Shown one piece after another: positions 9,642 to 26,880 of a stretch of DNA of 33,355 nt (its first letter is position 1; every line of letters starts with the position of its first letter). This stretch comes from Flavobacteriaceae bacterium (GTDB lineage: Bacteria; Bacteroidota; Bacteroidia; Flavobacteriales; Flavobacteriaceae), in NCBI GenBank assembly GCA_030830625.1, contig JAURMQ010000082.1, positions 1 through 33,355 on the forward strand. Reading direction: 5' to 3'. Under the pieces are notes generated by a model. That model saw only the letters and a program-made list of their open reading frames with translations. It did not search any database and was not told where the DNA came from. The position numbers were made by a program, and so were the translations under genes.

Positions 9642-11114
9642 ATGTCTTCTAAAACAATTGGACTTTTTTTGGGTCCTACAATGTTTTTTTTGACCCTTTT
9701 GTTTTTTAATCCAGCAGATTTAAATGATGCTTCCAGAGCGGTTTTGGCTTCTTCACTTTGGATAGCCATTTGGTGGATTACCGAAGCACTTCCTATATCT
9801 GTAACGGCATTACTTCCCATGATACTTTTTCCACTTTCTAATGGAATGGAACTGGCCGATTCCACCGCATCCTATGGTCATAAGCTTGTTTTTCTTACCA
9901 TGGGTGGATTTATTATTGCGATTGCCATTGAAAAATGGAATTTACACAAACGGATTGCTCTCCATATTATTTATTTTATTGGAACAGATATGAAGAAGAT
10001 CATTTTAGGATTTATGGTGGCTACCGCTTTTCTTTCTATGTGGATTTCTAATACAGCTACTTCGGTCATGATGCTCCCCATTGGCATTGTCATTATTAAG
10101 CAATTACAAGACAATCCGAATATCAATGGATCTGATACCCATAAATTTGCAAAGGCCTTAATGCTCTCAATTGCATACAGTGCTTCTATTGGAGGGGTCT
10201 CTACTTTGATTGGAACTCCAACCAATATGGTTATGGCTGGAGCCATTTCTCAAATTTACAATATCGAGATATCTTTTTTAGAGTGGTTTATTTTTGGATT
10301 TCCACTTGCACTAATCATACTCTTTTTTTCATGGTATTATCTAACCAGAGTTGCCTTTACGTTTAAAGACATTAGTATTCCAGGAGGAAGAGAAGAGATT
10401 TCAAAATTGAGAAAGGCATTAGGAAAAATATCTTACGAGCAAAAGGTAGTCAGCTTTGTTTTTGTGGCTGCAGCCTTTTGTTGGATTACAAAGAATTTTT
10501 TGTTGAAAGATGTTTTTCCGAGAATCGATGATACGATTATATCGATTTTTTTTGCTACCCTTTTGTTCTTGATCAATTCAAAAGACAAAAAGGAAAAAAT
10601 TCTAACATGGGAGGACACCCACAATTTGCCTTGGGGAGTATTACTTTTATTAGGTTCTGGAATGTCTTTTGCCAAAGCAGTTGACAGCAGCGGATTGTCT
10701 ATATGGGTGGGCACTCAAATTTCTGCTTTTGGCACTATAAATTTCTTTCTCCTCCTCATTTTATTAATTACGGTGGTGAACTTTTTAACTGAGATTGCCT
10801 CCAATATGGCGACAATTGCCATGATGTTGCCCATTTTAGCTCCTGTGGCTTTGGAGTTCAATGTACATCCCTATATGTTGATGGTGGCCGCTTCTGTATC
10901 GGCTTCATGTGCCTTTATGCTTCCTGTAGCTACCCCTCCCAATGCGGTTGTATTTGGCTCCGGCTATTTGAAAATGCCTGACATGGTGAAAAAGGGTTTT
11001 ATATTGAACCTGACTTCAATCATGATCATTGCCTTAATGGTTTATTTTTTGTTGCCTATTCTTTGGGAATTCGTTCCCGATAAGTTTCCTCATGAGTTTA
11101 TATCGTTTAAATAA
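9642..11114 (+). CDS. SLC13/DASS-family anion:sodium symporter
   Basis: A 490-residue inner-membrane protein with about 11 hydrophobic segments. The DASS substrate/sodium motifs are visible: SNTATSVMMLPI (SNT at 136-138) in the first repeat and TEIASNMATIAMMLPI in the second, where the SN-x-AT variant is normal for SLC13 carriers. It also has WWITEALPISVTALLPM near the N-terminus and LPVATPPNAVVFGSGY near the C-terminus. The family imports di- and tricarboxylates or sulfate with Na+. The enolase-superfamily gene starts 14 bases downstream, so the pair is probably one operon and the cargo may be an acid sugar or aldarate. That is inference from context only; succinate-type C4 acids are the default alternative. 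Confidence 0.9.
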   Translation: MSSKTIGLFLGPTMFFLTLLFFNPADLNDASRAVLASSLWIAIWWITEALPISVTALLPMILFPLSNGMELADSTASYGHKLVFLTMGGFIIAIAIEKWNLHKRIALHIIYFIGTDMKKIILGFMVATAFLSMWISNTATSVMMLPIGIVIIKQLQDNPNINGSDTHKFAKALMLSIAYSASIGGVSTLIGTPTNMVMAGAISQIYNIEISFLEWFIFGFPLALIILFFSWYYLTRVAFTFKDISIPGGREEISKLRKALGKISYEQKVVSFVFVAAAFCWITKNFLLKDVFPRIDDTIISIFFATLLFLINSKDKKEKILTWEDTHNLPWGVLLLLGSGMSFAKAVDSSGLSIWVGTQISAFGTINFFLLLILLITVVNFLTEIASNMATIAMMLPILAPVALEFNVHPYMLMVAASVSASCAFMLPVATPPNAVVFGSGYLKMPDMVKKGFILNLTSIMIIALMVYFLLPILWEFVPDKFPHEFISFK

Positions 11115-11128
11115 AATCAGTGGAATAA

Positions 11129-12253
11129 ATGGAAATTAGGATTACAGACATTATCAGTGAGTCATTTGAATGGGAAAGACCCGGGATTTGGAATGGGATG
11201 CATTTTTATGGACCCGGTCGAATGCATAAAGTTACTCTATTCACCAATCAGGGAATTCAAGGTATAGGATGGAATGGAGGGACTGCTGCGGTCCGTCCCC
11301 ATAATTTTTATGCTCCTTTTGTAGAGTATTACAAGTCTTTTTTAATCGGAAAAAATCCACTTGAAACCGAAAAATTGACTTTAGAGCTGGGGGAGAAACA
11401 AAATAAAATTCTCGGCTCTGCGGGATTGCACACTCAAGTATTGGGCGCCATAATCATCGCCTGTTGGGACATAAAGGGAAAAGTAGAAGACCAATCCATC
11501 CATACTCTTTTGGGGGGGGAGCAAAAAAGGGTAAGGGCTTACATAGCCGGAGGATATTACGCAAAAAATAAAGGAATAGAGGAGTTGCAGCAGGAGTTAC
11601 TTTACAATGTAAACGAGTTAAATGCCACTGCCGTTAAAATTAAAATTGGTGATCCCACCGCAGGGATTTCATTAGACATGAAGCGTGTGGAAGCAGCAAG
11701 AGAGGCCTTAGGGCCTCATATAGACTTACTTGTTGATGCCAATTGTGCTTTTGATTTGCCCACCGCCTTGGAATACGCCAAAGAAATGGAAAACTACAAG
11801 GTGTACTGGTTTGAAGAACCTTTGGCAATTCATGATTTCAAGGCACACAAAATCCTTAACGAATCCACAAGTCTCACCATTGCTGCAGGAGAAAATTATT
11901 ATACACTGGCCGATTTTGAAACGCTTATTGAAAACAAAGGAGCAAGCATGTTGAATGTTGATGCTACTATTTGCCCGGGTTATGATGTGGCTTTGTCGGT
12001 GGCAAAATTGGCTCAAGAAAAAGGGATAAAAATTGCGCCTCACGGATGTCAAGAAATTCATCTACCTCTGGTTGCTGCGGTCTCCAACGGAGAATTGTTG
12101 GAATATTATCCGCCAGAGGTTGACGAACTCCGCAAAGAGCTATTTTATCCAAATTTAAAATTAGACTCCGATGGATACGTAACCGTTCCAGATGCTCCTG
12201 GAATTGGGTTTGACCTCAATATGGACTTATTGAATCGCTATAGGGTAGGATAA
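11129..12253 (+). CDS. Enolase-superfamily (mandelate racemase/muconate lactonizing) enzyme, acid-sugar dehydratase-like
   Basis: A 374-residue two-domain protein with an intact enolase-superfamily active site. Lys170 and Lys172 in VKIKIG supply the general base. Asp203 (LLVDAN), Glu229 (WFEEP) and Glu255 (AAGEN) are the Mg ligands. Asp278 (NVDAT) and His305 (APHGC) form the Asp-His dyad. The KxK plus His-Asp arrangement places it in the mandelate-racemase subgroup, mostly acid-sugar dehydratases, racemases and cycloisomerases. The exact substrate (rhamnonate, fuconate, galactonate, aldarolactone or other) cannot be told. The rhamnose genes nearby encode the phosphorylated route, which needs no dehydratase, so this gene probably serves a separate acid substrate imported by its SLC13 partner. 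It converges on lldD with 20 bases between stop codons. Confidence 0.88.
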   Translation: MEIRITDIISESFEWERPGIWNGMHFYGPGRMHKVTLFTNQGIQGIGWNGGTAAVRPHNFYAPFVEYYKSFLIGKNPLETEKLTLELGEKQNKILGSAGLHTQVLGAIIIACWDIKGKVEDQSIHTLLGGEQKRVRAYIAGGYYAKNKGIEELQQELLYNVNELNATAVKIKIGDPTAGISLDMKRVEAAREALGPHIDLLVDANCAFDLPTALEYAKEMENYKVYWFEEPLAIHDFKAHKILNESTSLTIAAGENYYTLADFETLIENKGASMLNVDATICPGYDVALSVAKLAQEKGIKIAPHGCQEIHLPLVAAVSNGELLEYYPPEVDELRKELFYPNLKLDSDGYVTVPDAPGIGFDLNMDLLNRYRVG

Positions 12254-12261: not shown

Positions 12262-12295
12262 AAAAGGGGGTTCTCAGTAATTTAATCCCTCTTTT
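12262..12295. terminator. Candidate bidirectional terminator between convergent genes
   Basis: AAAAGGGGG (12262-12270) pairs with CCCTCTTTT (12287-12295) as a 9-bp stem with one G-U wobble and a 16-base loop. The A/T ends of the stem give a U-run in either direction. The hairpin lies between the stop of the dehydratase gene (12253) and the last codons of the convergent lactate dehydrogenase gene. Confidence 0.45.
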
Positions 12296-13449
12296 ATGAG
12301 TCTGTTGGGAAGGTCTTCGATTTTTTCGCAACACATTTGCTCCATTACTTGAGTCAATTGAGTTTTCAGTATTGAGATGGTATGATCTCCTCCTTTTTTG
12401 CCCAAAGCCGATACTCCATACATAAAACTCCTTCCCAGAAAAGTAAAATCTGCTCCCGAGGAAAGCGCTCTGCCAATGTCTGCTCCACCACGAATTCCGC
12501 TGTCCATCATAATTTTGATTTGGCCTTTGTATTTGGGAGCGATGGTTTGTAATGAAGTAATGGTGGCCTGTCCCATATCAACCTGTCTCCCTCCGTGATT
12601 AGAAATGATGATTCCATCTAATCCCAATCTTATAGCAGTCTGAACATCTGCCTCAGACTCTACGCCTTTGATTACCAGTTTACCCTTCCACATGTCTCTC
12701 AATTTTTTTACTTTTTCTTCATTGAGACGGCCTTCAAAAGTGGTGTTCATGAATTTACCCAATTGACTCAGATTAAGATTTTTGGGCATGTAAGGTTTAA
12801 GGACTTCAAAACTGGGTTGACCATTGATCAATGTTTTCAAGGCCCATTCTGGTCTTTTCATGACCCTCAATATATTTTGCAGGGTCATCCTCGGGGGCAT
12901 GGACAATCCGTTTCGGATGTCTCTTGGGCGATACCCAAAGGAAGGAACATCTGAAAGAATCACCAATACGGGACACGCTACAGCATCAATTCTTTTGATG
13001 AGATCTTGGGTTACTCTATCCTCGGCGGGGTGATAGAGTTGGAACCATGCCCTACCTTCTGTAATTTCGGCAATGGTTTCTATACTGGCAGTGGTAACCG
13101 TACTCAAAACAAAAGGAATGTTGTGTTCAAAAGCCGCTTTAGCCAAAATTTCAGGAGATTTGGGCCACATCAATCCTTGTAAGCCTACGGGAGAAACACC
13201 AAAAGGAGCATCGTATTCATGACCAAATAGCTCTGTTTTCAAATTGGCTCCTTTGAAGGGCACCAAATAGCGGGGTTTCATTTCCACCTTACGGAGCTCA
13301 TTCGTATTTTTGTAGAGGCTGACGTCTTCATTACAGCCTCCATCCAAATATTCAAATGCGAACTTAGGGATCTTTTTTTGGGCTTTGGCTCTTAGGTCCT
13401 CTATTGAGGGGTATCGAGGATTGTATTGTATGGGTTTAGACAATGGCAA
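12274..13449 (-). CDS. lldD: FMN-dependent alpha-hydroxy-acid (L-lactate) dehydrogenase
   Basis: A 391-residue TIM-barrel flavoenzyme that oxidises L-2-hydroxy acids, most likely L-lactate to pyruvate. The catalytic set known from glycolate oxidase is present: Tyr34 (FEYLDGG), Tyr139 (QLYH), Asp167 in LSDVPSFGYRPRD, Lys261 (VIKGV), and His285 and Arg288 in SNHGGRQVD. No in-frame ATG exists before Met57, which would remove Tyr34, so translation must start at TTG 13449 or TTG 13443. It follows the NCS1-like permease gene by 9 bases, in the same reading frame. In context it would consume the L-lactate produced by RhaEW. Other 2-hydroxy acids are possible substrates; the choice of lactate rests mainly on neighbourhood. 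Confidence 0.85.
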   Translation of the reverse strand: MPLSKPIQYNPRYPSIEDLRAKAQKKIPKFAFEYLDGGCNEDVSLYKNTNELRKVEMKPRYLVPFKGANLKTELFGHEYDAPFGVSPVGLQGLMWPKSPEILAKAAFEHNIPFVLSTVTTASIETIAEITEGRAWFQLYHPAEDRVTQDLIKRIDAVACPVLVILSDVPSFGYRPRDIRNGLSMPPRMTLQNILRVMKRPEWALKTLINGQPSFEVLKPYMPKNLNLSQLGKFMNTTFEGRLNEEKVKKLRDMWKGKLVIKGVESEADVQTAIRLGLDGIIISNHGGRQVDMGQATITSLQTIAPKYKGQIKIMMDSGIRGGADIGRALSSGADFTFLGRSFMYGVSALGKKGGDHTISILKTQLTQVMEQMCCEKIEDLPNRLIKEGLNY

Positions 13450-13458: not shown

Positions 13459-14844
13459 TTATTTTTTTTGAAAAACTTTACTAAAGATAATAAAAAGCCC
13501 TCCACAAGTTAACCAAGCAGGAAGCGTTAAAAAAGAGAGAAATACATCTTGGGTTTGGGACCAACCAAAAAAGAGGATAAAACTAATGAGCCAAGCAAAA
13601 AAAACAGATTTGTTGAAAGCCACATTCTTCTTTTCAGCATAGTTTTTAATTACCCCATATCGTTCAGCAAAAAAATATTCAAATACAATAACAGCACCCA
13701 CCGGGGCAAGAATAAATCCATATACTGCAACAAAATCAAGAAGTTTCATGGCAAAGGCTGGAAAAATTCCAGCAAGGGTTGCTACAGATCCAGCCAATAC
13801 AGTTGCCTGTGTGATGGACCATTTGGGGAGTATGGCTTGAAACGCCAAACCCGATCTATAGATTGTAGGATTGGCAGTGGTCCAACCAGCCAATATTACC
13901 GCGATAATTCCAAACCAGCCGATGGCATTATAGGCCAAGGGTCCAGGAGCGACAGGTGGGGCAGTTCCTTCTGCTAAAAAAGCAGCTGCCTCAGGTGATT
14001 TAAGATAAACAGCATACAACAAACAGGCAGCAATCCAAGCCATATAGTGACCTACATACATCCCTGCAGCAGTAGTCCATCCCGATTCAGGGGATTTGGC
14101 ATATCTGAATACCGAAAGGTCAGACATCCCGATGTGCATGGCAGCATTACAAAACCACGACCACATAAAAACATGCCAAAAAGTATATTTAATTTGTCCA
14201 GGAAAGGGGTCCGACCCTTCTCCCCATACAGCAATAAAATCAGAAAAACTTTTGACTCCCAATTGGTTGGCAGCAAATATTCCGCAGGCTAAAAAAGCCA
14301 AAACAATGAAAGGAGACATCCAGTTGGCCGCTTTTGAAACCATTCCATAGCCTTTCGCAGCAATCCAGGTAGTCAACCCCCCTATCACGATCACTACAAT
14401 GACCCATGTGATACTGTTGGGCATTACGTCTGTCAATTTGGGCATTTCCAAACCAGTAGGGACACCCACAGCAGTAGCCGAAACCGTTATCATCGATCCT
14501 GCTAAAAAACAAAACAGTATGCCATTGGCCACATTGTAAAAACTCACTAATTTTTTTCCTGATATTTTTTCCAATTTGAAATAAAGCGTAAAGCGTTCTT
14601 TGACTGCAATATTGGCAGTGATAAAACGCCAACACAAAACGGCCATCAAATTTCCCAATAATAGACCCGCGAGTAAATCGAAGGCACTAACTCCCACGGT
14701 GAGGAAGAGTGGACCGATCATAAATTCAGTTCCGGCTGCATGCTCTCCTGCATACATCCCCAAAAAACTTTTCCAGTTTTTTAATTCGGTTTTTGGGACG
14801 GCCTCTCTTTCAAATTCCGAGGACTGTTTGCTGTCTTTAGCCAT
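13459..14844 (-). CDS. NCS1-like (cytosine/purine permease family) transporter
   Basis: A 461-residue inner-membrane protein with about 12 hydrophobic segments. The N-terminal FLGMYAGEHAAGTEFMIG region, the early GNLMAVLCW helix and the centre (FWHVFMWSWFCNAAMHIGM, then GWTTANPTIYRSGLAF) fit the nucleobase:cation symporter-1 fold of CodB and Mhp1 (LeuT-type). The family normally carries cytosine, purines, hydantoins or thiamine. The context is different: the gene sits between the rhamnose-locus regulator and lldD on the same strand, 62 bases after the former and 9 before the latter, and no purine or pyrimidine gene is near. It may therefore import L-rhamnose or another metabolite of the island. 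This is inference; the fold assignment is moderately sure, the cargo unknown. Confidence 0.8.
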   Translation of the reverse strand: MAKDSKQSSEFEREAVPKTELKNWKSFLGMYAGEHAAGTEFMIGPLFLTVGVSAFDLLAGLLLGNLMAVLCWRFITANIAVKERFTLYFKLEKISGKKLVSFYNVANGILFCFLAGSMITVSATAVGVPTGLEMPKLTDVMPNSITWVIVVIVIGGLTTWIAAKGYGMVSKAANWMSPFIVLAFLACGIFAANQLGVKSFSDFIAVWGEGSDPFPGQIKYTFWHVFMWSWFCNAAMHIGMSDLSVFRYAKSPESGWTTAAGMYVGHYMAWIAACLLYAVYLKSPEAAAFLAEGTAPPVAPGPLAYNAIGWFGIIAVILAGWTTANPTIYRSGLAFQAILPKWSITQATVLAGSVATLAGIFPAFAMKLLDFVAVYGFILAPVGAVIVFEYFFAERYGVIKNYAEKKNVAFNKSVFFAWLISFILFFGWSQTQDVFLSFLTLPAWLTCGGLFIIFSKVFQKK

Positions 14845-14906
14845 AATTAGTAGTTTTTTTTAAATGTAAAAAATTCTTTGGGACCCAATGACCTGTAATG
14901 TCCTGT

Positions 14907-15941
14907 TCAAAGAGAATTACGTTCAATAAATCTAAATTCATTTTTCTGTAATACATTTTTCTTTTCAAGTATGGTTTCGGCAGCCGTATTTCCCATCGAT
15001 TTGAAATTTGTTGAAATTACCGAAATTCCATTGGAAAGGATTTCTTTGAGCGGAGTATCATTATAGGAAAGAACCCCAACATCCTTTGAAAGTTGAAGCT
15101 TTGAAAGACGAATGTTTTTAATTAAATTGACTAAATCAGATTCTTTGATCACGATGTAAGCCGTGTTTTTTTTCACCGGGTGGTCACTTGGGATTTCGTG
15201 AATTAATTCGCTTTTAAAATCATTAATGCTACAAAAAAACATAAAGCCCTGTACAATTGATATGGGATATGGGTAATTAAATCCTTTTGGAAAAACCAGA
15301 CAAATCGACCCATATTTCTTCAGGTTTTCCTTTGCTGTATTCAGAGAGCTGATAAGATCCTCTTTAAAATCCTGATAAATACACGAGTTGTAATGGGTAA
15401 AATTAGGAATGAAATCATCCAGCAAAATGATCTTTTCTTTTTTGATTTTGCGCATCAAAGTGTCAAACTTTTTGAAGTCAAAATCGTTAAAGTGAGGCAT
15501 TACAACATAATAATTATAACCATTTAAATTTTCCTCAATGATTTTTTTAAAATTATCGAATTCACAGTGGTGAACGTGAAAATAAACACTGGCCGTATCC
15601 CCTAATGTGTCACAAAAAGCATTAAAAATCTCTTTTTTATAGGAACTCAATTTATTGAAAACCACCAATATTCTATTTTGAGTTTTGGGTTTTGAGTTGA
15701 CCACAAAGTGTCCCCGTCCTTTTACAGATTCAATAACGCCAGTATCCTTGAGTATACTGTAGGCTTTCTCTACAGTATCTCTTGAGATGTAATAATCAAA
15801 ACTCACTTGATTGATAGAGGGTAGTTTTTGACCGTACTTTATGCTACCGGATTGTATGAGTTCGGAAATGCTGTCTACAATTTGCTTGTATTTCGGTTTA
15901 TTATTTATGTCGTTTAACTCGAGTTTAAAAAAATCGATCAT
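14907..15941 (-). CDS. GntR-type transcriptional regulator with LacI-like sugar-sensor domain
   Basis: A 344-residue regulator. Residues about 13-80 form a GntR winged helix-turn-helix: KYKQIVDSISELIQSG, YGQKLPSINQVSFDYYISRD, TVEKAYSILKDTGVIESVKG, ending GRGHFVV. Residues about 89-340 look like a periplasmic-binding-protein/LacI-type effector domain, starting NRILVVFNKLSSYKKEIFNA and ending with FKSMGNTAAETIL, the latter typical of LacI sensor domains. It is divergent from rhaEW across 79 bases and probably heads the operon that continues into the permease and lldD. It most likely controls the rhamnose genes in response to rhamnose or a pathway intermediate. Well-known rhamnose regulators are AraC-type (RhaR/RhaS), so this is a different solution. 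Repressor action is inferred from the operator-like palindrome over the rhaEW start. Confidence 0.85.
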   Translation of the reverse strand: MIDFFKLELNDINNKPKYKQIVDSISELIQSGSIKYGQKLPSINQVSFDYYISRDTVEKAYSILKDTGVIESVKGRGHFVVNSKPKTQNRILVVFNKLSSYKKEIFNAFCDTLGDTASVYFHVHHCEFDNFKKIIEENLNGYNYYVVMPHFNDFDFKKFDTLMRKIKKEKIILLDDFIPNFTHYNSCIYQDFKEDLISSLNTAKENLKKYGSICLVFPKGFNYPYPISIVQGFMFFCSINDFKSELIHEIPSDHPVKKNTAYIVIKESDLVNLIKNIRLSKLQLSKDVGVLSYNDTPLKEILSNGISVISTNFKSMGNTAAETILEKKNVLQKNEFRFIERNSL

Positions 15942-15993
15942 AATTTTTTATTTTTACCCACACCTACAGGATACTTTATCGCACCAACAACAA

Positions 15994-16020: not shown

Positions 16021-18123
16021 ATGGAAAATAAAAGTAAGTATAAGTTTGTAAACTATCTCTGGAATGAGAAAAAAGCACAAGAATTGGGCGATGACCAAGT
16101 GGCTCTTTTTTTATACCGCTCGAATCTTTTAGGGGCAGACTTAAGGATCACCAATTTTGGAGGAGGAAACACCAGCTGCAAAACCATTGAAAAGGATCCG
16201 CTCACCCATGAAGAGGTTGAGGTAATGTGGATTAAAGGATCCGGTGGAGACATTGGAACCCTCAAACGAGATGGTATTGCAGGTTTGTACAACCAAAGAC
16301 TCCATGATTTAAAAAAAGTTTACCGTGGTTTAGAACATGAGGATGAAATGGTTGCGCTTTTCAATCATTGTATCTATGATTTGGACAGCAGGGCTCCTTC
16401 CATCGATACTCCCCTCCACGGCTTACTTCCTTTCAAACATATAGACCATTTACACCCCGATGCCTTGATCGCTATTGCTGCAGCCGAGGACAGCCAAAAA
16501 ATTACCAAAGAAATCTGGGGAGACACTATGGGATGGGTGCCTTGGCAACGTCCTGGGTTTGATCTTGGCTTGCAACTGGAAGCCTGTTTAAACGAAAACC
16601 ATGGAATTAGAGGTATCGTTTTGGGCAGTCACGGTGTCTTTACTTGGGGAGATACCTCATACGAATCCTATATAAACAGTCTCGAAGTCATTGAAGCCGC
16701 TTCTCAATATATAGAGGACAAAATTGCCAAAAATGGAAGTGTTTTTGGTGGGCAAAAAATCAAAAGCTTGACCACAGAACAAAGAAAAGATCAAGCGGTA
16801 AAGCTTGCTCCTACCTTAAGAGGTTTGTGTTCTTCTGAAAATGCGATGATCGGTCATTTTACGGATGATGAAAAAGTGTTGGAATACATCAATTCAAATG
16901 ATTTGGAGCGTTTGGCACCTATGGGTACTTCCTGCCCAGATCATTTTTTGAGAACAAAAATTAAGCCTCTCATACTGAATTTAGCCCCTAATGAGGATCT
17001 GGATGAGGAGCAAAAGGTTTTAGACAAAATATCCCATTCATTTGAACAGTACCGTGAGGACTATATAGCCTATTATGAATCGTGTAAGCATCACAATAGC
17101 CCTGCCATAAGGGATGCCAATCCTGTGGTAATTTTGTATCCAGGAGTGGGGATGTTTACTTTTGCCAAAAACAAACAAACAGCAAGGGTCGCTAGTGAAT
17201 TCTACATCAATGCCATAAACGTAATGCGAGGAGCAGAAGCCATTTCAAAATACACTTCTCTCCCTCGTCAAGAAGCTTTTGATATAGAGTATTGGTTGTT
17301 GGAAGAGGCCAAACTTCAACGTCAACCCAAAGAAAAACCTTTGTCCAGAAAAGTAGCTTTGGTGACGGGTTCTGGCGGAGGAATTGGAAGAGCCATTGCC
17401 GACAAACTCATCGCCGAGGGAGCCAACGTTGTGTTCACAGATATTTCTGAGGAATTTCTTCAGGAGGCTACCCAACAATACAGCTCAGATCAAGCCATAG
17501 GCTGTCATTGCGATGTGACTCAAATAGAGAGTTTGGAAGCCGCAGTTCATAAAGCTTGTTTGCAATTTGGAGGATTGGATATTGTAGTCCACAGCGCCGG
17601 ATTGGCCATTTCTAAGTCGATAATCGATACCACTGAATCAGATTGGGATTTACTTCAAAACGTTTTAGTAAAAGGTCAGTTTTTGTTGTCAAAAACAGCC
17701 GCGATAATCATGAAAAAACAGAATTTAGGAGGAAGCATAGTCAACATCGCCAGTAAAAATGGATTGGTTTCTGGGCCTAACAACGCAGGATATGGTACAG
17801 CAAAAGCGGCTCAAATGCATCTTTCAAGGCTATTGGCGGCAGAATTGGCAGCCGACCAGATACGGGTCAATACGGTGAATCCTGATGGAGTCATTATCGG
17901 GAGTAAAATTTGGGAAGGAGATTGGGCAGAAGGCAGAGCAAAGGCCTATGGAATTACTGTTGAGGAACTGCCCGCTTTTTATGCCAAAAGAAATATTCTA
18001 AACAAAATCATTAGACCAGAAGATATTGCCAACGGAGTTTTTGCTTTTTTGGCGATTTTAGACAAAAGTACAGGAAACACCATCAATGTTGACGGTGGGG
18101 TAGCCAATGCTTTTGTAAGATAA
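16021..18123 (+). CDS. rhaEW: Bifunctional rhamnulose-1-phosphate aldolase / L-lactaldehyde dehydrogenase
   Basis: A 700-residue fusion protein. The N-terminal part (about 1-430) is a class II aldolase/epimerase domain with GGGNTSCK (47-54), the metal-binding HLHPDAL (His143, His145) and GSHGVF (His204); it should cleave rhamnulose-1-phosphate to DHAP and L-lactaldehyde. The C-terminal part (about 441-700) is a short-chain dehydrogenase: TGSGGGIG (449-456), NIAS (575-578), YGTAK (Tyr591, Lys595) and a closing INVDGGV. In characterised relatives from Bacillus and Chloroflexus this half oxidises lactaldehyde to L-lactate with NAD. The gene opens the plus-strand operon with rhaI and rhaB, 15 and -1 bases apart. 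It is full length with both active sites intact. The domain call is sure; lactaldehyde oxidation, as opposed to reduction to propanediol, is by family and fits the adjacent lldD. Confidence 0.93.
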   Translation: MENKSKYKFVNYLWNEKKAQELGDDQVALFLYRSNLLGADLRITNFGGGNTSCKTIEKDPLTHEEVEVMWIKGSGGDIGTLKRDGIAGLYNQRLHDLKKVYRGLEHEDEMVALFNHCIYDLDSRAPSIDTPLHGLLPFKHIDHLHPDALIAIAAAEDSQKITKEIWGDTMGWVPWQRPGFDLGLQLEACLNENHGIRGIVLGSHGVFTWGDTSYESYINSLEVIEAASQYIEDKIAKNGSVFGGQKIKSLTTEQRKDQAVKLAPTLRGLCSSENAMIGHFTDDEKVLEYINSNDLERLAPMGTSCPDHFLRTKIKPLILNLAPNEDLDEEQKVLDKISHSFEQYREDYIAYYESCKHHNSPAIRDANPVVILYPGVGMFTFAKNKQTARVASEFYINAINVMRGAEAISKYTSLPRQEAFDIEYWLLEEAKLQRQPKEKPLSRKVALVTGSGGGIGRAIADKLIAEGANVVFTDISEEFLQEATQQYSSDQAIGCHCDVTQIESLEAAVHKACLQFGGLDIVVHSAGLAISKSIIDTTESDWDLLQNVLVKGQFLLSKTAAIIMKKQNLGGSIVNIASKNGLVSGPNNAGYGTAKAAQMHLSRLLAAELAADQIRVNTVNPDGVIIGSKIWEGDWAEGRAKAYGITVEELPAFYAKRNILNKIIRPEDIANGVFAFLAILDKSTGNTINVDGGVANAFVR

Positions 18124-18138: not shown

Positions 18139-19413
18139 ATGTTTGATCCAAAAAAACTAAAAGCATTCAACGAAGAACGGATATCGGAACACCAAAGGAA
18201 ATATAATTTTTTGGCCGAAGGACTCACCCGAAAAGGATTTGATTTGGATCGGATGATCGATCAAATGCGTGCTTTTCAGATAGCCATACCCAGTTGGGCT
18301 CTCGGTACAGGAGGAACACGTTTTGGTCGATTTCCGCAAGGGGGAGAACCTTCGAGTTTGCAAGATAAAATCAAAGACGTAGGGATACTGCATGCACTCA
18401 ATCAATCAAGTGGGGCAATTAGCCTCCATATACCTTGGGATATTCCTAAAGATTACAATGCCATAAAGCAATTGGCAAATGGATTGAACATTAAGTTTGA
18501 TGCAGTCAATTCCAACACTTTTCAGGATCAACCGGAGTTTCACCATTCTTATAAATTTGGATCTCTTTGCCATATAGACAAAGGGGTAAGAAAAGAAGCC
18601 ATTCGTCACAATAAAGAGGTCATCGATCATGGAATTCAACTGGGTTCTAAGGCTTTGACGGTATGGTTGGCCGATGGTTCATCTTTTGCAGGACAGCACA
18701 ATTTTCGAGGAGCATTTCAGCGAACCTTGGAGTCATTAGAGGAAATTTATGATCACTTACCTTCCGACTGGAAACTCCTGATCGAGTACAAACCTTATGA
18801 ACCCAATTTTTACTCTATGGTCATTCCAGATTGGGGAACTTCCCATCTTATGGCTTCTCAATTGGGAGAACAGGCCACCACCTTGGTCGATTTGGGACAT
18901 CATTTACCCAACACCAATATCGAGCAAATAGTAGCTGTACTCATGCATTTGAATAAATTGGGAGGATTTCATTTTAACGACAGCAAATACGGGGACGATG
19001 ATCTTACAGTAGGAGCCGTCAAACCCTATCAGTTGTTTTTGATTTTTTGTGAATTGGTGCAGGGTATGCAGGAGACCTCAAATCCAGAATTGTCCTGGAT
19101 GATCGATGCGAGTCACAATCTCAAAGATCCCATGGAAGATTTATTACAATCTGTAGAAAGTATTAAAATTGCCTATGCTCGGGCTTTGTTGGTGGACTAC
19201 AACGGGTTGAAAGTTGCTCAAGAACAAAATGATGTGGCAGCCGCTCAATCGATATTACAAGAGGCTTTTAGAACCGATGTCAGACCTTTAGTCAATGAAT
19301 GCATTTACTCCGCGGGTGGGGCATTGGATCCTCTTGGAGCCTATCGCCATTTGGATATTCGCAATCAATTGATCGCCAACCGAGGCCAAGATTCTAAATC
19401 TACGGGATTGTAA
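18139..19413 (+). CDS. rhaI: L-rhamnose isomerase, RhaI (Pseudomonas stutzeri) type
   Basis: A 424-residue xylose-isomerase-like TIM-barrel enzyme converting L-rhamnose to L-rhamnulose. Residues fitting the P. stutzeri-type active site are seen: His97 in LHIPWD, Glu216 in LLIEYKPYEP, Asp251 in VDLGHH, His278 and Asp281 in GGFHFNDSKYGDDD, and a late Asp in SWMIDASHN. The N-terminal GTGGTRFGRFPQGGEP loop is also typical of this subtype. It is not the E. coli RhaA type. It starts 15 bases after rhaEW, and its stop overlaps the kinase start as TAATG, so translational coupling is likely. Confidence 0.92.
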   Translation: MFDPKKLKAFNEERISEHQRKYNFLAEGLTRKGFDLDRMIDQMRAFQIAIPSWALGTGGTRFGRFPQGGEPSSLQDKIKDVGILHALNQSSGAISLHIPWDIPKDYNAIKQLANGLNIKFDAVNSNTFQDQPEFHHSYKFGSLCHIDKGVRKEAIRHNKEVIDHGIQLGSKALTVWLADGSSFAGQHNFRGAFQRTLESLEEIYDHLPSDWKLLIEYKPYEPNFYSMVIPDWGTSHLMASQLGEQATTLVDLGHHLPNTNIEQIVAVLMHLNKLGGFHFNDSKYGDDDLTVGAVKPYQLFLIFCELVQGMQETSNPELSWMIDASHNLKDPMEDLLQSVESIKIAYARALLVDYNGLKVAQEQNDVAAAQSILQEAFRTDVRPLVNECIYSAGGALDPLGAYRHLDIRNQLIANRGQDSKSTGL

Positions 19414-20729
19414 TGAAAAAAAACTGCTGTTTGGTTTTTGATATAGGCAAGACCAATCAAAAATATTTTGTATTCGATTCGGATCACAACATCCTGAGGA
19501 GAGAAAAAGTATCCTTTGCCAAAATAGAGGATGAGGACGGTCATAAAGCCGAAAATATCCCATCCATTGTATCTTGGATGAAAGAAAGCTTCAACAATCT
19601 TTTAAAGTCCGACGACTTTGATATTGAAAAAGTAAGTTTTTCTGGTTTCGGGGCTACTTTGGTCCATTTGGATGATAAGGGAGAAGTTGTGACTCCGGTT
19701 TACGATTATCACAAAACAGTAGATACCGATACTTTCACTCAATTTTACAAAGATTATGGACCAGAGTCTGTTTTTGCCAGTCAAACGGGTTCCAAAAATT
19801 TGAATCTGCTCAATTCTGGTAAACAGCTTTACTGGTTAAAATACAAACGCCCTTCACTATTCAAAAAAATTCGTTTCAGTTTGCATTTACCCCAGTACCT
19901 AAGTTATGTTTTTACCGGCGAAATGTTTACAGAATACACCAGTATAGGTTGTCATACCGATTTGTGGGATTACGAAAAAAAAGAGTATCATCACTGGGTA
20001 AAAGTAGAGGGGATTGACCGCCTTTTTCCGCCCATTGTTCAGACTCAAAAAACAATAATTAAAAATGTTGAAGGTCGAAAAATCACCTTTGGTGTTGGAA
20101 TTCACGATAGCTCATCGGCTTTGCTGACCTACCTACTGGAGGGAAAGGAGTCGTTTGTGCTCTTGTCAACAGGAACCTGGTGTATCAATTTCAATCCTTT
20201 TTCCGACGACTCTCTTTTTGACGAAAAACAGATCGATGAGGGAGCCACTGCCTATATGAAAATTGATGGCAGTCCTGTAAAAACCTCTCGTTTGTTTTTG
20301 GGTGAAGAGCACCGTTTGAAAGTACAAAAATTGGTAGCGCATTTTGGAGCTCCTGAATTTTATCATCGACAATTAAAATTTGATAAAACCACTTACGAGG
20401 AACAGGTGCAAAAATCAGTCTGCCATTTCCATTGGCAGTTCATTGATAATGATGACTCCCCTGACAATGATATTTTAGACTTCCCAAATTTTGAAGTAGG
20501 GTATCATCAATTAATGCACGAATTGATTGGGGTACTGAAAAATAAAATTCAAGTGATATGTGAAAAGATGCCCGAAAAAATATTTGTTGACGGGGGTTTT
20601 TCAGACAATAATATTTTCGTAGAGCTCTTAAAACTCCAATTCCCCAATCAGAAAATCAAAGCCAAGCCGGCCTCTTATGCTTGTGCTTTAGGAGCTGCAT
20701 TATTAATTGAAAACTCAGTCTGTCCTTAA
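19413..20729 (+). CDS. rhaB: FGGY-family rhamnulokinase
   Basis: A 438-residue sugar kinase of the FGGY/hexokinase-actin fold, expected to phosphorylate L-rhamnulose at O-1. It shows the N-terminal phosphate motif DIGKTN (10-15), a central GIHDSSSAL with Asp232 as the likely catalytic base, the LSTGTWC strand and the adenosine-site DGGFSDN motif (Asp393). It is somewhat shorter than E. coli RhaB (about 490 residues), as is common for Bacteroidota homologues of this type. The start codon overlaps the rhaI stop. Substrate specificity comes from the operon; from sequence alone it could be another FGGY kinase such as one for fuculose. It closes the rhaEW-rhaI-rhaB operon. Confidence 0.88.
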   Translation: MKKNCCLVFDIGKTNQKYFVFDSDHNILRREKVSFAKIEDEDGHKAENIPSIVSWMKESFNNLLKSDDFDIEKVSFSGFGATLVHLDDKGEVVTPVYDYHKTVDTDTFTQFYKDYGPESVFASQTGSKNLNLLNSGKQLYWLKYKRPSLFKKIRFSLHLPQYLSYVFTGEMFTEYTSIGCHTDLWDYEKKEYHHWVKVEGIDRLFPPIVQTQKTIIKNVEGRKITFGVGIHDSSSALLTYLLEGKESFVLLSTGTWCINFNPFSDDSLFDEKQIDEGATAYMKIDGSPVKTSRLFLGEEHRLKVQKLVAHFGAPEFYHRQLKFDKTTYEEQVQKSVCHFHWQFIDNDDSPDNDILDFPNFEVGYHQLMHELIGVLKNKIQVICEKMPEKIFVDGGFSDNNIFVELLKLQFPNQKIKAKPASYACALGAALLIENSVCP

Positions 20730-20834: not shown

Positions 20835-23570
20835 ATGAAACGCTTTATTCATTTTGCTTTAACCCTATTGATTACTTCTCTTCAGGCACAGAAAACCTTT
20901 ATTTCTAATTTAGAGGTAGATAAACTGATAAATCCAATAGGGTTGGATACTCAAAATCCCGACTTTTCGTGGGTCATCCATTCGGAAAATTATAATCTAA
21001 ATCAAACCCATTATCAGGTTTTTGTTGCTACCGATAAAATCTTTTCCAAAAAAAGTTTGGTGTGGGATTCGGGAAAAGTAAGCTCTTCGGAATCCGTTTA
21101 TGTAAAATATGAAGGAAAACCCCTTGACTATGCCACTAAGTATTATTGGACAGTAAAAGTTTGGACCAATCAATCTTCAAGACCCAGACAGAGTGGAATT
21201 GGTTTTTGGACTACTGGAATGATGAATGAAAAGCAATGGAAGTCAGATTGGATAGGAGTGAACAGTGGAGATGAAAATTCAGCAGAAAGCCCCTATTTTA
21301 CTAATGATTTTGTGGTGGATAACCAAATTGAATCTGCTCATTTATTCATAACTTCAAGAGGGGTTTATGAGGCGCATATCAACGGGAAAAGAGTGGGAGA
21401 ATCTTATTTGACACCTGGATGGACTTCTTACAATAACCGAATCCAATATCAAGCCTATGATGTACAAGATCTTCTTTCGGATGGAGATAATAGATTGGGA
21501 GTGATTATTGCTGACGGTTGGTTCCGAAACTTCAGACCCAATAGCGGAACGAGATCAACAAATTATGGCAACGAGACATCCTTCATCGCTGAGCTGGTGG
21601 TCACTCTTGAAGACGGTACGAAGAAAACAATCATCAATGATGATAATTGGAATTATCATTTTGGTTCGATTCTGAGCTCATCAATATACAATGGCGAAAC
21701 TGTTGATTATAATCTGTCCAATCCCCATTGGTCTAAACCCAATAATAACTCTTTCCCCTCCAAAAAAGCGAAATCTGTTGATCGGTACCTTGGAAAATTA
21801 GATCATACAAGAAATGAAATGATCAAAAAAAGAGAAGTGTTGAAGGCCAAAGAATTGATTATAACCCCATCAGGGGACAAGGTTATTGATTTTGGTCAAA
21901 ATCTTGTGGGGTGGGCACAGTTCAAGTCCAACCTTCCCAAGGGATCCAAGGTCACCCTATATCATGCCGAAGTTCTTGATCAAGCAGGAGAGTTTTACAC
22001 CACCAATTTGAGAAAAGCCAAGCAGACCAATAGCTTTGTTTTGAATGGTGTAAAAGATCAAATTTATCATCCTACCTTCACATTTCAAGGGTTTAGATAC
22101 CTAAAAGTGGAAGGGATTGATCAAATCAATCTCGAAGATTTCCAGGCGGTAGCACTGTATTCGGATATGGAATTTACGGGTACTCTCACCACTTCAAATG
22201 ATCTGATCAATCAGCTTCAAGAAAACATACAATGGGGGCAAAGAGGAAATTTCTTAGATGTTCCTACCGATTGTCCTCAAAGAGACGAAAGATTGGGATG
22301 GACTGGAGATGCGCAAGCATTTTTCAATACTGCTGGATTTAATATGGATGTCAAAAACTTTTTTGACAAGTGGTTGATGGATTTGACGTATGACCAAAGA
22401 TCCGATGGAGCAGTTCCAGGAGTTGTGCCTCATAACAATTATTTAGATTCGAATGAATTACTTCAACTCAGTGGCAGTTTTGGAAGAACCGGTTGGGCCG
22501 ATGCAGCGACCATTATACCTTGGAATTCCTATCTGATTTATGGAGACCCGAAAACGCTGGATCGACAATACAATAGCATGAAAAAATGGATTGACTTCAT
22601 GACTCAAAATTCAAAGAATAATATTTACATTAAAAAAGACCATTGGGGCGATTGGCTCTTCTTTTCTCGAGATGATGATAATGCAGGCAGATCGGCAGTG
22701 ACCAGTCAAAAAATTATCGCTCAAGCTTTTTATTGTTACTCTACACAGTTATTGATTAAGTCTGCAAAAGTATTGGGCCACGACCAAGATGTCAAAAAAT
22801 ATTCAGAGCTTTATGAGAAACTGCTCAAAGCCTTTAACAATGAATTTGTAACCAAAAACGGAATGTTGGTTTCCGATTCTCAAACCGCTTATGTTTTGGC
22901 ATTACAATTCAATTTACTTTCGGAAGAACATACAAAAATTGCCGTCAACCGATTGGTTGAGAATATTGATAAATACGGCCATCTGACCACAGGTTTTCTG
23001 GGAACACCATTCCTGTGCCACGTGCTGTCCCAAAATGGAAAATATGACGAGGCTATTAAATTATTACTCAGAACAAAATACCCTTCATGGCTGTATCCCG
23101 TTACCAAGGGAGCCACTACCATCTGGGAACGTTGGAACGGGATCAAACCTGATGGAAGTTTTCAGTATCCCAGTATGAATTCATTCAACCACTATGCCTA
23201 TGGTGCTATTGGAGAGTGGATGTACAACAACCTTATGGGATTGAAACTCAATGAAGATTTTCCAGGATATAAGCGCTTTACTATTGAACCTATTTTTGAT
23301 GAAAATTTTGAAAATATTCTCGGCAGTTTTGATTCCAATTATGGAAAAATTAAAGTCGAGTGGAAGCGAAATAATGGAGTGCTAAACGTGGTGGTTGATA
23401 TTCCCTCCAATACGTCTTCGGATGTAATTCTCAATAAACCCATGGAGGGGAGCTGGAAATTACTCAATGCCAAATTGGATTCGAAAATCCAGCAACGTCA
23501 GGAACAAAACAAAAAAACAATTCTGCTGCTCGGATCCGGAAAATATGAGTTTTATTTTGCAGCAAATTGA
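20835..23570 (+). CDS. Secreted GH78 alpha-L-rhamnosidase
   Basis: A 911-residue exported glycosidase that removes terminal alpha-L-rhamnose by inversion. A Sec signal peptide (residues about 1-19, ending SLQAQ) is followed by an N-terminal beta domain (VDKLINPIGLDTQNPDFSW), the bacterial rhamnosidase N domain (AHLFITSRGVYEAHINGKRV), the (alpha/alpha)6 catalytic barrel and a C-terminal beta domain. GH78 acidic residues are present in DVPTDCPQRDERLGWTGD (Asp479, Asp484, Glu485, Asp492) and in TTIWERW (Glu765, the likely catalytic base). No type IX C-terminal sorting domain is obvious, so it is probably periplasmic. It follows rhaB after 105 bases, where it may have its own promoter. Confidence 0.93.
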   Translation: MKRFIHFALTLLITSLQAQKTFISNLEVDKLINPIGLDTQNPDFSWVIHSENYNLNQTHYQVFVATDKIFSKKSLVWDSGKVSSSESVYVKYEGKPLDYATKYYWTVKVWTNQSSRPRQSGIGFWTTGMMNEKQWKSDWIGVNSGDENSAESPYFTNDFVVDNQIESAHLFITSRGVYEAHINGKRVGESYLTPGWTSYNNRIQYQAYDVQDLLSDGDNRLGVIIADGWFRNFRPNSGTRSTNYGNETSFIAELVVTLEDGTKKTIINDDNWNYHFGSILSSSIYNGETVDYNLSNPHWSKPNNNSFPSKKAKSVDRYLGKLDHTRNEMIKKREVLKAKELIITPSGDKVIDFGQNLVGWAQFKSNLPKGSKVTLYHAEVLDQAGEFYTTNLRKAKQTNSFVLNGVKDQIYHPTFTFQGFRYLKVEGIDQINLEDFQAVALYSDMEFTGTLTTSNDLINQLQENIQWGQRGNFLDVPTDCPQRDERLGWTGDAQAFFNTAGFNMDVKNFFDKWLMDLTYDQRSDGAVPGVVPHNNYLDSNELLQLSGSFGRTGWADAATIIPWNSYLIYGDPKTLDRQYNSMKKWIDFMTQNSKNNIYIKKDHWGDWLFFSRDDDNAGRSAVTSQKIIAQAFYCYSTQLLIKSAKVLGHDQDVKKYSELYEKLLKAFNNEFVTKNGMLVSDSQTAYVLALQFNLLSEEHTKIAVNRLVENIDKYGHLTTGFLGTPFLCHVLSQNGKYDEAIKLLLRTKYPSWLYPVTKGATTIWERWNGIKPDGSFQYPSMNSFNHYAYGAIGEWMYNNLMGLKLNEDFPGYKRFTIEPIFDENFENILGSFDSNYGKIKVEWKRNNGVLNVVVDIPSNTSSDVILNKPMEGSWKLLNAKLDSKIQQRQEQNKKTILLLGSGKYEFYFAAN

Positions 23571-24002: not shown

Positions 24003-26810
24003 TCAGGGAGAAATTTCAAGAGGAGTTAAAATGGGATCTTCCAAAATCCCAGCGTCTAAAACATCTAAGGTTGAAGCATCAAAAGGCTGGTAATCTAAAC
24101 CTACCATATTGATTTCGTGAAATATTTTCCATTCCTCGCCTCGAGCCTCCTTGGCTTTGATTCGGTTGGATCCCAAATTGGTGACCTGAATGCGGAGGGT
24201 ATTCCCCTCTTTTTTCAACTGTTCAAGTGTAATCCGATAGGGGTTGGACCAAAGAGTTCCGATGTATTGATTGTTCAGCCATATCTTACCACTTTCTCTA
24301 AGGTCTCCCAAATCCAAAAGCCAAGGACCATCATGGTCTGCAGGTCTTTCAAATTTAATTTCATATTCGGCAGTTCCCGAAAATGCTTTCATGCTCTCTC
24401 CCCATTCGGTCCAGGATGTCAACGTATTGATTTTTTTTGTAAAAGTTGTATCTGGCCCTCCTTTGATTAATTTAAAATTCCAGTGGCCTTTTATCTTATA
24501 CGCTGTATCTGATGGCTTGTAATATTCCCAATTGGGAACATTGATTTTATCAAAAGTTTTGAGAAAAAGACTTCCCCCCGAGGGCAGAGCTATTTTTATT
24601 TGAGTTTGGTTTCCGATTGTCTGGGTTTGGCCCTTTCCCGTTTTTCCATTCAATGGATCCATGATCAATACCTCATTGGCCTCTACTCCAAGGGGAATAA
24701 AACCTTCAATTTTTTCGGGAGTGTGGTTGACGATAAAGTAGGTTTTTTTACCTTGATGATCCCTCCTGATGAATTTAAGGCCTTTCTCCACCATTTTTTC
24801 TTGAATCACTCCAGCTTTTTTCAGTGGGATTTCCATTTCTTCAAACGAATAGATTTTGTTGACCTTGTCTTTGGCCAATGCTTTCAATTCATTTTCTCTT
24901 TTTTGATGGTCAAAAAAACCAGGGGCACTTTCGGGGATTCCTAAAAAAACCACCGACGCTCCCCTAGATCTCAGCTCGATGAGTTTTTCCAAAGTTTTTA
25001 GGGGCATATACTTTGTAGCTGGCACTACTATAGCACGGTAGTTTCCTCCTGGTAACTGAAGGATACCATTTTCAACATTCATTTTTTCCAAGAATCGATC
25101 TGAAATGTAGTCAAATCCATACCCTTCTTCGATCAGGTGATGGGCCGTTTCGTAAAAAGAGGTTCCAGATAACCAAGTATCGAGGCGATGAATGGCAAAT
25201 TGCACCAAGAGGTTCCCGTCATTAAATTTTGTCCAACTGTCATGAACAGGCCAATAAACCAGTACATCATTGTCTGGCAAACCCTCTTGCAAGAGGGATT
25301 GTGATCGACCGATGTATTCAAATAGGGCGGGAGCGTCCTCCCAAACGGGATTGGTGTCGTTAAAATTTACGGGGGCATAAAACTTCCAGCCCGGCCAAGG
25401 AGCCGATGCAGGCGAATAGGTCGAACCGTGTAAAAAAACATGGTTAACCCCATTGAGAAATAAATCCTCTACCTCGGGTTTGCATTGAGATAGGGCAGCC
25501 CCAAAATGCTCTCTCAACCAAGTGAAAGTTTCGGAGGAAACCAATTTTTGGCCAGACAAATGAGCAGCAGAGGAGGAAAATTTGATCATAGCGGCATCCG
25601 CATCCCCTGCTCTAAAATTCCTATGAGGGAAATCCGCAGAGCTACCCTTTCCCTCTACCCGCCTAAAACCCTTAATATTGTATGGCATGGATCCAAACGT
25701 TTCACACTCTGGAATATCGGCCGATGCATATAAATCTATTAAATTTCCAGGTGCGCCATGGGCTTGATATTTGGTCTCTACATTCATGCTTTCTGCCCAC
25801 AGTTTCAACTCAGGATTGAAGCCTTCTATCAGTAAATCGGACAATGTTTCTCGGTAATCTCCTCTGATTCTATTGCTGATTTCATTGTCATTTTTATCCA
25901 AGAGTCTATTCATGTAGGGTTTGAGATCATAGCCGCGATAATATTTAAAAAGCTTAAAAAAATCGGAGGTGTAATCCGCTTTATACACTTCATAACTATC
26001 ATTGAAAACAGATCGGATTCTACCCTTCATTTTTTCAAAACGTTGACTAAAAAGCTGTAAGTAATTTTCAAGTGCTTCAGGAGAAAAATGGTCTAATACC
26101 CACCCCTCTCCCCCAGGAGCCGCTCTTTTGACCTTTTGCCTTGTGCGGTCTTCAAACACGAAAAATAGCGCGTAATCATCTTCTACGGCTTTCCATTTCA
26201 AGCGATCTTCAAAAGTTTGATGCGTAAGATCTATAAATTTATTGTGTGAATCAAAGGCAAAAACCCCTTGAAGTTTTGGACCCAAATTTTCAGTATCCCC
26301 CCCTTTAACATCTCGGAGCGTGGGGGTAACCAATTCTCCCGTTTTGTAGGGAGAAATCGTTTCCGAAAACAGCTCACCTTTAGTGAGATTTACTTTTCTT
26401 ACCAAGAGCCGTTTGGCAGCATCTGTGTGAGTCACATGAGAGCCTCCCCAAGGCCACCCCGTTCCCAAGGTCAGGTCAACTCCCATATTGAGGCTGTCTG
26501 CCACCCTGACCGTATGGTCCAGCAAATCGATCCATTTGGGGCTCAAAAAATCAATAAAGGATCCTTCATATCCTTTTACTCCATAGATGGGTTCTATTTC
26601 TACTCCTCCTATTCCTGCTTTTTCAAATGTGATTAAGGATTGGGTAATGTTTTTTTTATCGACTGCACTGCCCATCCACCACCACCGGGTCCAGGTTTTG
26701 GATTCTTTTTTTAACACAGGCCAGAGAGACAAATCGTTTTGAGCGTTTACAAATCGTCCACTCAGCAATATACTCCCTACAAACAGTACAGTGTATAATT
26801 TCCTTAACAT
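24003..26810 (-). CDS. Secreted GH106-type alpha-L-rhamnosidase
   Basis: A large exported glycoside hydrolase, 935 residues from ATG 26810. That start gives a clean signal peptide (LYTVLFVGSILLSG, then FVNAQ); the longer frame from 26843 adds only 11 residues. GH106 features are the early TWTRWWWMGSAVDKKNI segment, GIGGVEIEPIYGVKGYEG, the LTLGTGWPWGGSHV motif, the SSETFTWLREHFG region and a C-terminal galactose-binding-like sandwich (IWLNNQYIGTLWSNPYRITL). Family members are calcium-dependent inverting alpha-L-rhamnosidases that act on pectic or rhamnose-rich polysaccharides. The rhamnose catabolic neighbours and downstream rhaM support that activity. The linkage attacked cannot be predicted. 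Confidence 0.88.
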   Translation of the reverse strand: MLRKLYTVLFVGSILLSGRFVNAQNDLSLWPVLKKESKTWTRWWWMGSAVDKKNITQSLITFEKAGIGGVEIEPIYGVKGYEGSFIDFLSPKWIDLLDHTVRVADSLNMGVDLTLGTGWPWGGSHVTHTDAAKRLLVRKVNLTKGELFSETISPYKTGELVTPTLRDVKGGDTENLGPKLQGVFAFDSHNKFIDLTHQTFEDRLKWKAVEDDYALFFVFEDRTRQKVKRAAPGGEGWVLDHFSPEALENYLQLFSQRFEKMKGRIRSVFNDSYEVYKADYTSDFFKLFKYYRGYDLKPYMNRLLDKNDNEISNRIRGDYRETLSDLLIEGFNPELKLWAESMNVETKYQAHGAPGNLIDLYASADIPECETFGSMPYNIKGFRRVEGKGSSADFPHRNFRAGDADAAMIKFSSSAAHLSGQKLVSSETFTWLREHFGAALSQCKPEVEDLFLNGVNHVFLHGSTYSPASAPWPGWKFYAPVNFNDTNPVWEDAPALFEYIGRSQSLLQEGLPDNDVLVYWPVHDSWTKFNDGNLLVQFAIHRLDTWLSGTSFYETAHHLIEEGYGFDYISDRFLEKMNVENGILQLPGGNYRAIVVPATKYMPLKTLEKLIELRSRGASVVFLGIPESAPGFFDHQKRENELKALAKDKVNKIYSFEEMEIPLKKAGVIQEKMVEKGLKFIRRDHQGKKTYFIVNHTPEKIEGFIPLGVEANEVLIMDPLNGKTGKGQTQTIGNQTQIKIALPSGGSLFLKTFDKINVPNWEYYKPSDTAYKIKGHWNFKLIKGGPDTTFTKKINTLTSWTEWGESMKAFSGTAEYEIKFERPADHDGPWLLDLGDLRESGKIWLNNQYIGTLWSNPYRITLEQLKKEGNTLRIQVTNLGSNRIKAKEARGEEWKIFHEINMVGLDYQPFDASTLDVLDAGILEDPILTPLEISP

Positions 26811-26880
26811 TACATCCGAAAATGGAGTAGAGTTCATGAGCATATTATTATGGGCTAATTTAAAATTTCAGACATTAAAT

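Follow-up and report, generated by a model that had tools for sequence, protein, structure and literature searches.

The permease gene located in the L-rhamnose utilization island of this Flavobacteriaceae contig most probably (our estimate is roughly 0.8) encodes the island's inner-membrane L-rhamnose importer, a probable Na+ symporter with an NCS1-like LeuT fold that would take the place of RhaT. Among genomes of the phylum, the pathway seems to be served by either the permease or RhaT, one substituting for the other, and this mutual replacement argues most strongly that the substrate is L-rhamnose and that it is imported. Substrate, Na+ coupling, and transport direction are those that the permease probably has, as we infer them, and the fold is that of a predicted model. 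The window, namely the whole 33,355-nt stretch of DNA that was analysed, is one entire contig (C57) from a genome of 1.89 Mb that is 86% complete, and carries the following features:

6462-8372: ABC-F-like protein, not an importer (two ABC ATPase domains plus ABC_tran_Xtn)
9642-11114, plus strand: DASS anion symporter (domain match), outside the edge of the rhamnose block
12274..13449, minus strand: lldD-like FMN-dependent L-lactate dehydrogenase (FMN_dh PF01070, E 3e-116)
13459..14844, minus strand: NCS1-fold permease, proposed L-rhamnose:Na+ symporter (ORF with ATG start, 461 aa)
14907..15941, minus strand: GntR-type regulator with a periplasmic-binding-like (Peripla_BP_3) ligand domain (PF00392, E 4.5e-13)
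16021..18123, plus strand: rhaEW, bifunctional rhamnulose-1-phosphate aldolase / lactaldehyde dehydrogenase (TIGR02632, 933 bits, cut-off 568)
18139..19413, plus strand: rhaI, L-rhamnose isomerase (TIGR02629, 486 bits, under the cut-off of 647)
19413..20729, plus strand: rhaB candidate, FGGY-family rhamnulokinase (PF00370; TIGR02627, 62 bits, far under the cut-off)
20835..23570, plus strand: GH78-type alpha-L-rhamnosidase (PF17389, E 2e-119)
24003..26843, minus strand: GH106 alpha-L-rhamnosidase (PF17132, E 2e-59)

The gntR, permease, and lldD genes lie on the minus strand, and rhaEW, rhaI, the FGGY kinase, and GH78 genes on the opposite one. A first-pass annotation of this DNA had placed the permease between the island's regulator and lldD in one apparent operon. 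The position within the rhamnose island was confirmed, with a shared strand and gaps of 62 bp between permease and gntR and 9 bp between lldD and permease (taking the longest lldD ORF); the permease has an operator-like box of its own at 14889-14906, therefore the permease–lldD pair need not rely wholly on the gntR promoter. The lldD-like protein scored 286.6 bits against PRK11197, under the cut-off of 376, and the GntR-type protein, a probable rhamnose regulator, matched PF13377 with E 9e-6 and 26.3 bits, slightly below the cut-off.

In the proposed pathway, the GH78 and GH106 rhamnosidases would release L-rhamnose, presumably outside the cytoplasm, and the permease would bring it in together with Na+, which would occupy the Na2 site that lies between TM1 and TM8 (T322, T323). 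RhaI, RhaB, and RhaEW would then convert L-rhamnose to dihydroxyacetone phosphate and L-lactate, and LldD would oxidize the L-lactate to pyruvate. Both arms would be governed by the GntR-type regulator via ACAGGAY boxes, with which it is presumably paired.

As the first-pass annotation had stated, no RhaT, SSS, MFS, or ABC sugar importer was present among the 20 window ORFs that were scanned with Pfam. In the 86%-complete genome, a profile search found no RhaT (PF06379), and neither a PF02133 member nor a BPD_transp_2 permease was present. About 10 SSS (PF00474) genes (12 matched stretches) and two Sugar_tr MFS matches, one strong and one marginal, were detected, all of them off the window's contig, and these carriers might offer another route for rhamnose.

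Several other genes were observed in the window. The DASS gene is followed by an MR_MLE enolase-superfamily, sugar-acid-dehydratase-like gene that adjoins lldD (the pair spans 9642-12253, plus strand); because few related loci have homologues of DASS (7/80) or MR_MLE (3/80), the two are regarded as optional members of the neighbourhood that may handle a sugar acid. A FAD_oxidored (PF12831) protein of secreted appearance directly adjoins GH106 (26930-28591, plus strand), the gliding / type IX secretion genes gldK, gldL, gldM, and gldN occupy 713-5337 (plus strand), and an RND efflux protein, identified by eye, is truncated by the window end.

The resemblance of the permease to NCS1 carriers, claimed in the first-pass annotation, proved real but remote. 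The sole curated match was TIGR00800 (NCS1), with E 1.1e-7 and 30.9 bits, which does not reach the cut-off of 353.1, and Pfam gave nothing even at E<=10, PF02133, PF06379, and PF00474 included. Among 59 family members, 22 hit TIGR00800 at E<=0.01 (lowest E 4.5e-14) and one hit PRK11017, a model of cytosine permease, at the same threshold; none hit PF02133 (Transp_cyt_pur) at E<=1. Searches against solved structures returned a light-harvesting protein at E 0.21 as the only phmmer match and, with the family profile, no match at E<=10. Neither Pfam nor NCBIfam holds a model naming this permease, and its relatives are publicly annotated as 'nucleoside transporter', 'membrane protein', or 'hypothetical'; among the matches listed, the nearest relative is from a Flavobacteriaceae MAG (L002), at 91% identity, on which ground Bacteroidota was adopted as the window's phylum.

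An AlphaFold2 model was then built from an alignment (A1) of 59 of the 81 available proteins, with L075 (truncated at a contig end) and others excluded, and reached a pLDDT of 86.0 and a pTM of 0.85. With this predicted model, Foldseek placed CodB at the top (TM by target 0.84), followed by Mhp1, and VIA-align gave Z values of 38.0 for CodB (2.7 A over 395 residues at ~16% identity), 31.9 for Mhp1, and 26.0 for SiaT, so the predicted fold is of the CodB/Mhp1 type. Further, an hhalign comparison of the family (81 sequences) to eight NCS1 proteins covered 410 columns, with 18% identity and E 8.7e-19. The fold search and the profile–profile comparison therefore indicate that the permease is homologous to NCS1 proteins and shares their fold.

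In the tree, for which 28 of 86 close rows were used, L099 and L102 (misread frames) were removed and L105 was trimmed, a very long branch, supported at 100/100, separated 57 family rows from 8 NCS1 rows; the mannitol-dehydrogenase-linked clade described below, the Alteromonadales rows, and the NCS1 rows all meet there as long branches. The rhamnose-linked Alteromonadales rows grouped with the mannitol-linked clade at 85/71, and because this grouping is weak, the rhamnose-linked proteins are not established as one clade. Taken as a whole, it appears likely that these proteins form an unnamed family of NCS1-fold carbohydrate carriers, apart from the nucleobase carriers, that comprises L-rhamnose members and a polyol clade and occurs in Bacteroidota and Alteromonadales.

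The co-occurrence of the permease with the rhamnose pathway was evaluated in 296 genomes of the window's phylum, the same set being searched with the family profile, with TIGR02629 for RhaI (E<=1e-60), and with PF06379 for RhaT (E<=1e-20). The permease scored above 500 bits in 27 genomes, and RhaI was found in 27/27 of them, so that the linkage of this clade with rhaI across Bacteroidota, for which the first-pass annotation had proposed to look, was borne out. Of 49 genomes with RhaI, 25 had the permease only, 20 had RhaT only, two had both, and two (G004 and G096) had neither, i.e., RhaT was found in 20 of the 22 RhaI genomes that lack the permease, and the permease was the more frequent transporter in rhaI-bearing genomes (27 vs. 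22). The two permease genomes that also have RhaT were G162 (208 bits) and G178 (79.7 bits), and six of the 296 genomes had RhaT without this RhaI. Fisher tests gave p 3e-25 for permease and RhaI, and p 3e-9 for permease and RhaT within the RhaI genomes, values that ignore relatedness among genomes that are not independent. Counted by genus (n=34), 17 had the permease only, 13 RhaT only, two both, and two neither; this table, with genera of either kind inside family f1, indicates that the association is not one single event.

Whichever transporter is present mostly lies near rhaI. In 22 of the 27 genomes, the permease and rhaI share a contig and are no more than ~5 kb apart, and in 18 of the 20 RhaT-only genomes RhaT is found no farther than ~10 kb from rhaI. 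In the remaining five permease genomes (G064, G119, G162, G179, and G219) the permease is away from rhaI; the assemblies of G119 and G219 consist of at least 250 contigs each, and that of G179 is a single contig.

Gene neighbourhoods were then inspected for the best 80 of 175 relatives, nearly all from Bacteroidota and many on short contigs. At least one of rhaI, rhaEW, and rhaB was in view in 60 of the 80 loci, a tally in which the cut rhaEW of L038 was left uncounted, and lldD and gntR homologues were present in 44 and 26 loci, respectively. In the 44 loci with full 10-kb flanks, rhaI/rhaEW was present in 37 and absent within 10 kb in seven. A further 26 loci scoring above 500 bits were viewed with 1.5-kb flanks, and 21 of them carried rhaEW, rhaI, or rhaB. 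The Alteromonadales members are 569-571 aa long and ~40% identical; in L114 and L115 the permease directly adjoins rhaEW and rhaI, and in L113, located on the ulvan plasmid pAlt76, ~10 kb separate it from rhaEW. A role of pAlt76 in ulvan degradation is described in passages of PMC6431674 in which the permease gene goes unnamed, and in passages of PMC13050008, MFS transporters are predicted to take up rhamnose in Pseudoalteromonas marina.

Some relatives have other surroundings. L116 (9998-11683), a divergent member from Alteromonadales encoded on plasmid pAltI4, is located among glycosyl hydrolases and hypothetical genes, with no rha genes listed. In L072 (8427-14321), an MFS sugar porter gene flanks the permease on one side and araB/araD-like genes (identified by eye) on the other, away from rha genes, and because of these neighbours substrates may vary within the family.

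The substrate-site and Na2-site residues of CodB, as given in the relevant passages of PMC9379551, were compared with those of the family, and the nucleobase contacts turned out to be not all conserved, the Na2 threonines being kept and the TM3 tryptophan lost. The TM8 segment AGWTTAN of the permease aligns with NIWTTND of CodB, so that T322 and T323 correspond to the CodB Na2 residues Thr278 and Thr279. In the MAFFT alignment, both threonines are kept in 28/28 close, 4/4 Alteromonadales, and 5/5 mannitol-clade rows, and in 20 of the 22 rows of the middle group, the remaining two (L099 and L102) being the misread frames. At the position of CodB Asn280, nearly every family row has Ala, and the Alteromonadales rows have Ser.

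The stacking Trp of TM3 (CodB Trp108) is present in 8/8 NCS1 rows, whereas the family column is mostly Leu/Ile, and an alternative register puts Phe111 at this position; residue pairs in TM3 are uncertain, because the hhalign gaps fall inside the helix and MAFFT picks another register. No Trp occurs in TM3 of the window permease (residues 97-130), and one row (L013) of the 81-row alignment has a Trp within this stretch. L088, L090, L104, L106, and five mannitol-clade rows have a Trp closer to the start of TM3, off the Trp108 position.

Further, all correctly read rows of the family have E34, H35, and E40 at the TM1 break and R330 in TM8, residues that occur in none of the eight NCS1 rows. The invariant W230 in TM6 falls at or beside the position of CodB Phe204, depending on the alignment, and after the TM6 break the family has three extra residues compared with NCS1, the last of which is an invariant His (MAFFT alignment). 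A pocket with E34, H35, E40, R330, and W230 and without the TM3 Trp suggests a site that would suit a sugar.

A related clade supports carbohydrate transport as the role of the permease family. Three Bacteroidota proteins (L109-L111, 308-320 bits) and two from Alteromonadales (L117 and L119), all of ~570 aa, form one clade with 100/100 support, and in 5/5 of their loci the next gene belongs to the mannitol-dehydrogenase family, an assignment made from Pfam domains (PF01232/PF08125) for the Bacteroidota loci (L120-L122) and from annotation for L117 and L119. A carbohydrate kinase follows the dehydrogenase in three of the five (L121, of PfkB type, L117, and L119). From these neighbours, the clade members are likely polyol carriers. 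The NCBIfam models nearest to the dehydrogenases of L120, L121, and L119 were fructuronate reductase and D-arabinitol dehydrogenase, and since all these matches fall under every cut-off, the polyol is not fixed and mannitol is a guess. RhaI had no match in G107 and G130, two of the three Bacteroidota genomes of this clade. An XdhC-family protein is encoded four genes from the L119 permease.

Three other readings of the window permease were weighed against L-rhamnose import. That it imports L-lactate, or exports the surplus derived from RhaEW, is suggested by the adjacent lldD gene and by the lldD homologues in more than half of the 80 related loci. In L046 (129-4240), the permease is followed by a CCG-domain and two LUD-domain proteins (LldEFG/LutABC type) that replace lldD, and L014, L035, L037, and L065 have lldD but no rha genes in their flanks, both of which would also fit lactate. 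However, 13 of the 37 full-flank rha loci have no lldD, although some of them may use LldEFG; L114 and L115 have none listed next to their rhaEW and rhaI, in a gene table that is incomplete; and the related clade adjoins polyol-dehydrogenase-family rather than lactate genes. Because so many rha loci lack lldD, and with the complementarity to RhaT favouring a sugar, transport of L-lactate is very unlikely, and of the substrates that the first-pass annotation had put forward, which included rhamnose and lactate, L-rhamnose fits best. It is improbable, too, that the permease imports another product of the rhamnosidases, be it an oligosaccharide containing rhamnose, rhamnose bearing methyl or sulfate groups, or a different deoxysugar, with free rhamnose entering through SSS or MFS carriers. 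The GH78 and GH106 enzymes of the island, the family member on the ulvan plasmid, and the SSS and MFS genes on other contigs all speak for such a substrate, but RhaT, which the permease complements, is a monosaccharide carrier, and the pocket of CodB, described in passages of PMC9379551 as accommodating a nucleobase-sized ligand, favours a small substrate.

The database names would be right if the permease were a conventional carrier of nucleobases, nucleosides, or hydantoins and lay in the island by chance. CodB and Mhp1 are indeed the closest folds to the predicted model, Alteromonadales relatives are annotated 'nucleoside transporter', and TIGR00800 and PRK11017 match part of the family. 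Against this, every permease genome has RhaI, the TM3 position is not Trp, charged residues stand at the TM1 break, the family and NCS1 rows are split in the tree, and no nucleobase genes were seen adjoining the permease, by annotation or by eye on ORF starts, in the stretches viewed, in line with the earlier statement that none is nearby. An ordinary nucleobase carrier was rejected on the RhaI co-occurrence and the site residues, and we regard it as extremely unlikely.

Compared with known systems, the permease as an L-rhamnose importer shares with CodB and Mhp1 the predicted fold across nearly the whole length, the TM8 Na2 threonine pair, and profile homology, but differs from them in its place in sugar operons, its score below the NCS1 cut-off, and its TM3 position. 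CodB and Mhp1 belong to the NCS1 family (TC 2.A.39). RhaT, an L-rhamnose:H+ symporter of the DMT superfamily (PF06379), has the same inferred role and genomic slot but is of another family, and its fold differs from the NCS1-type fold of the permease. The SSS carriers (SiaT, vSGLT, SGLT) likewise have a LeuT fold with a Na2 site and are known to carry sugars; however, SiaT is structurally more distant than CodB, and the permease has no PF00474 match. RhaY (MFS) and RhaFGHJ (ABC) are, as the permease probably is, non-orthologous replacements of RhaT and come from different protein families (described in parts of PMC3870299). In the relevant parts of this 2013 comparative study, rhamnose uptake of Bacteroidales was assigned to RhaT, with some genomes left without a candidate, the rhamnose transporters given were of RhaT, ABC, and MFS types, and 'NCS1' has 0 occurrences in its main text (PMC3870299).

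Our literature search found no publication on an NCS1-like rhamnose carrier. In GapMind / Fitness Browser, Echvi_1617 of Echinicola vietnamensis is reportedly given as an L-rhamnose transporter, and if this protein belongs to the permease family, mutant-fitness support would already be present in a database. If the reading as a carbohydrate-carrier family with rhamnose and polyol members is true, NCS1-like proteins would gain sugars and polyols as a new class of substrates, and many Bacteroidota would have their missing rhamnose importer; if confirmed, the NCS1 fold would have been adapted to carbohydrates by a route separate from that of the SSS family. Because no model names the family and its members are recorded under the names given above, sugar and polyol uptake of marine polysaccharide degraders may have been overlooked or misread.

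Operator-like boxes were found at two sites of the island:

14889..14906, minus strand: tandem operator-like box ACAGGACATTACAGGTCA, ~45 bp before the permease start, 0 mismatches
15966..15975, plus strand: single box ACAGGATACT, between the gntR and rhaEW genes

For the tandem pattern (ACAGGWYA with a 10-bp period), 0.17 chance matches at <=2 mismatches are expected in the whole window. The box had been spotted by eye in the same loci that were later counted, and the T variant was added after seeing the window's box; since the same loci had supplied the pattern, the counts are descriptive. A search for exact palindromes ahead of the rhaEW and permease genes gave no motif that is widely shared, and the first tandem pattern, CAGGA-N4-6-CAG[GA]A, occurred upstream of 9/79 permease, 3/52 rhaB, and 0/50 rhaEW genes. 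Within 250 bp upstream, ACAGGAY was present at rhaEW in 23 of 50 loci, where shuffles predict 1.6, and at gntR in 19 of 26, largely in the same divergent region. It was also found upstream of rhaB (12/52 vs. 2.4 expected) and of the permease (10/79 vs. 4.1 expected, a mild enrichment that is weak alone), and in this 250-bp range of neither lldD (0/43) nor rhaI (0/46).

The tandem box at <=2 mismatches stood before the permease in 13 of the 80 loci, ~0.7 being expected from the loci's overall rate, and 67 loci had none there; it was located in the gntR/rhaEW region in 10 loci. At <=3 mismatches, this tandem pattern, which is looser than the first one, gave 134 matches in the 80 loci, 91 of them outside the 250 bp upstream of named genes. 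Among the 20 loci in which no rha gene was visible, five (L069, L072, L076, L078, and L079) had a tandem box at <=3 mismatches, that of L072 with 0 mismatches. Tandem boxes off named genes, such as those in L032 (11362, plus strand), L041 (2686, minus strand), L043 (13755, plus strand), and others, may mark further members of the rhamnose regulon.
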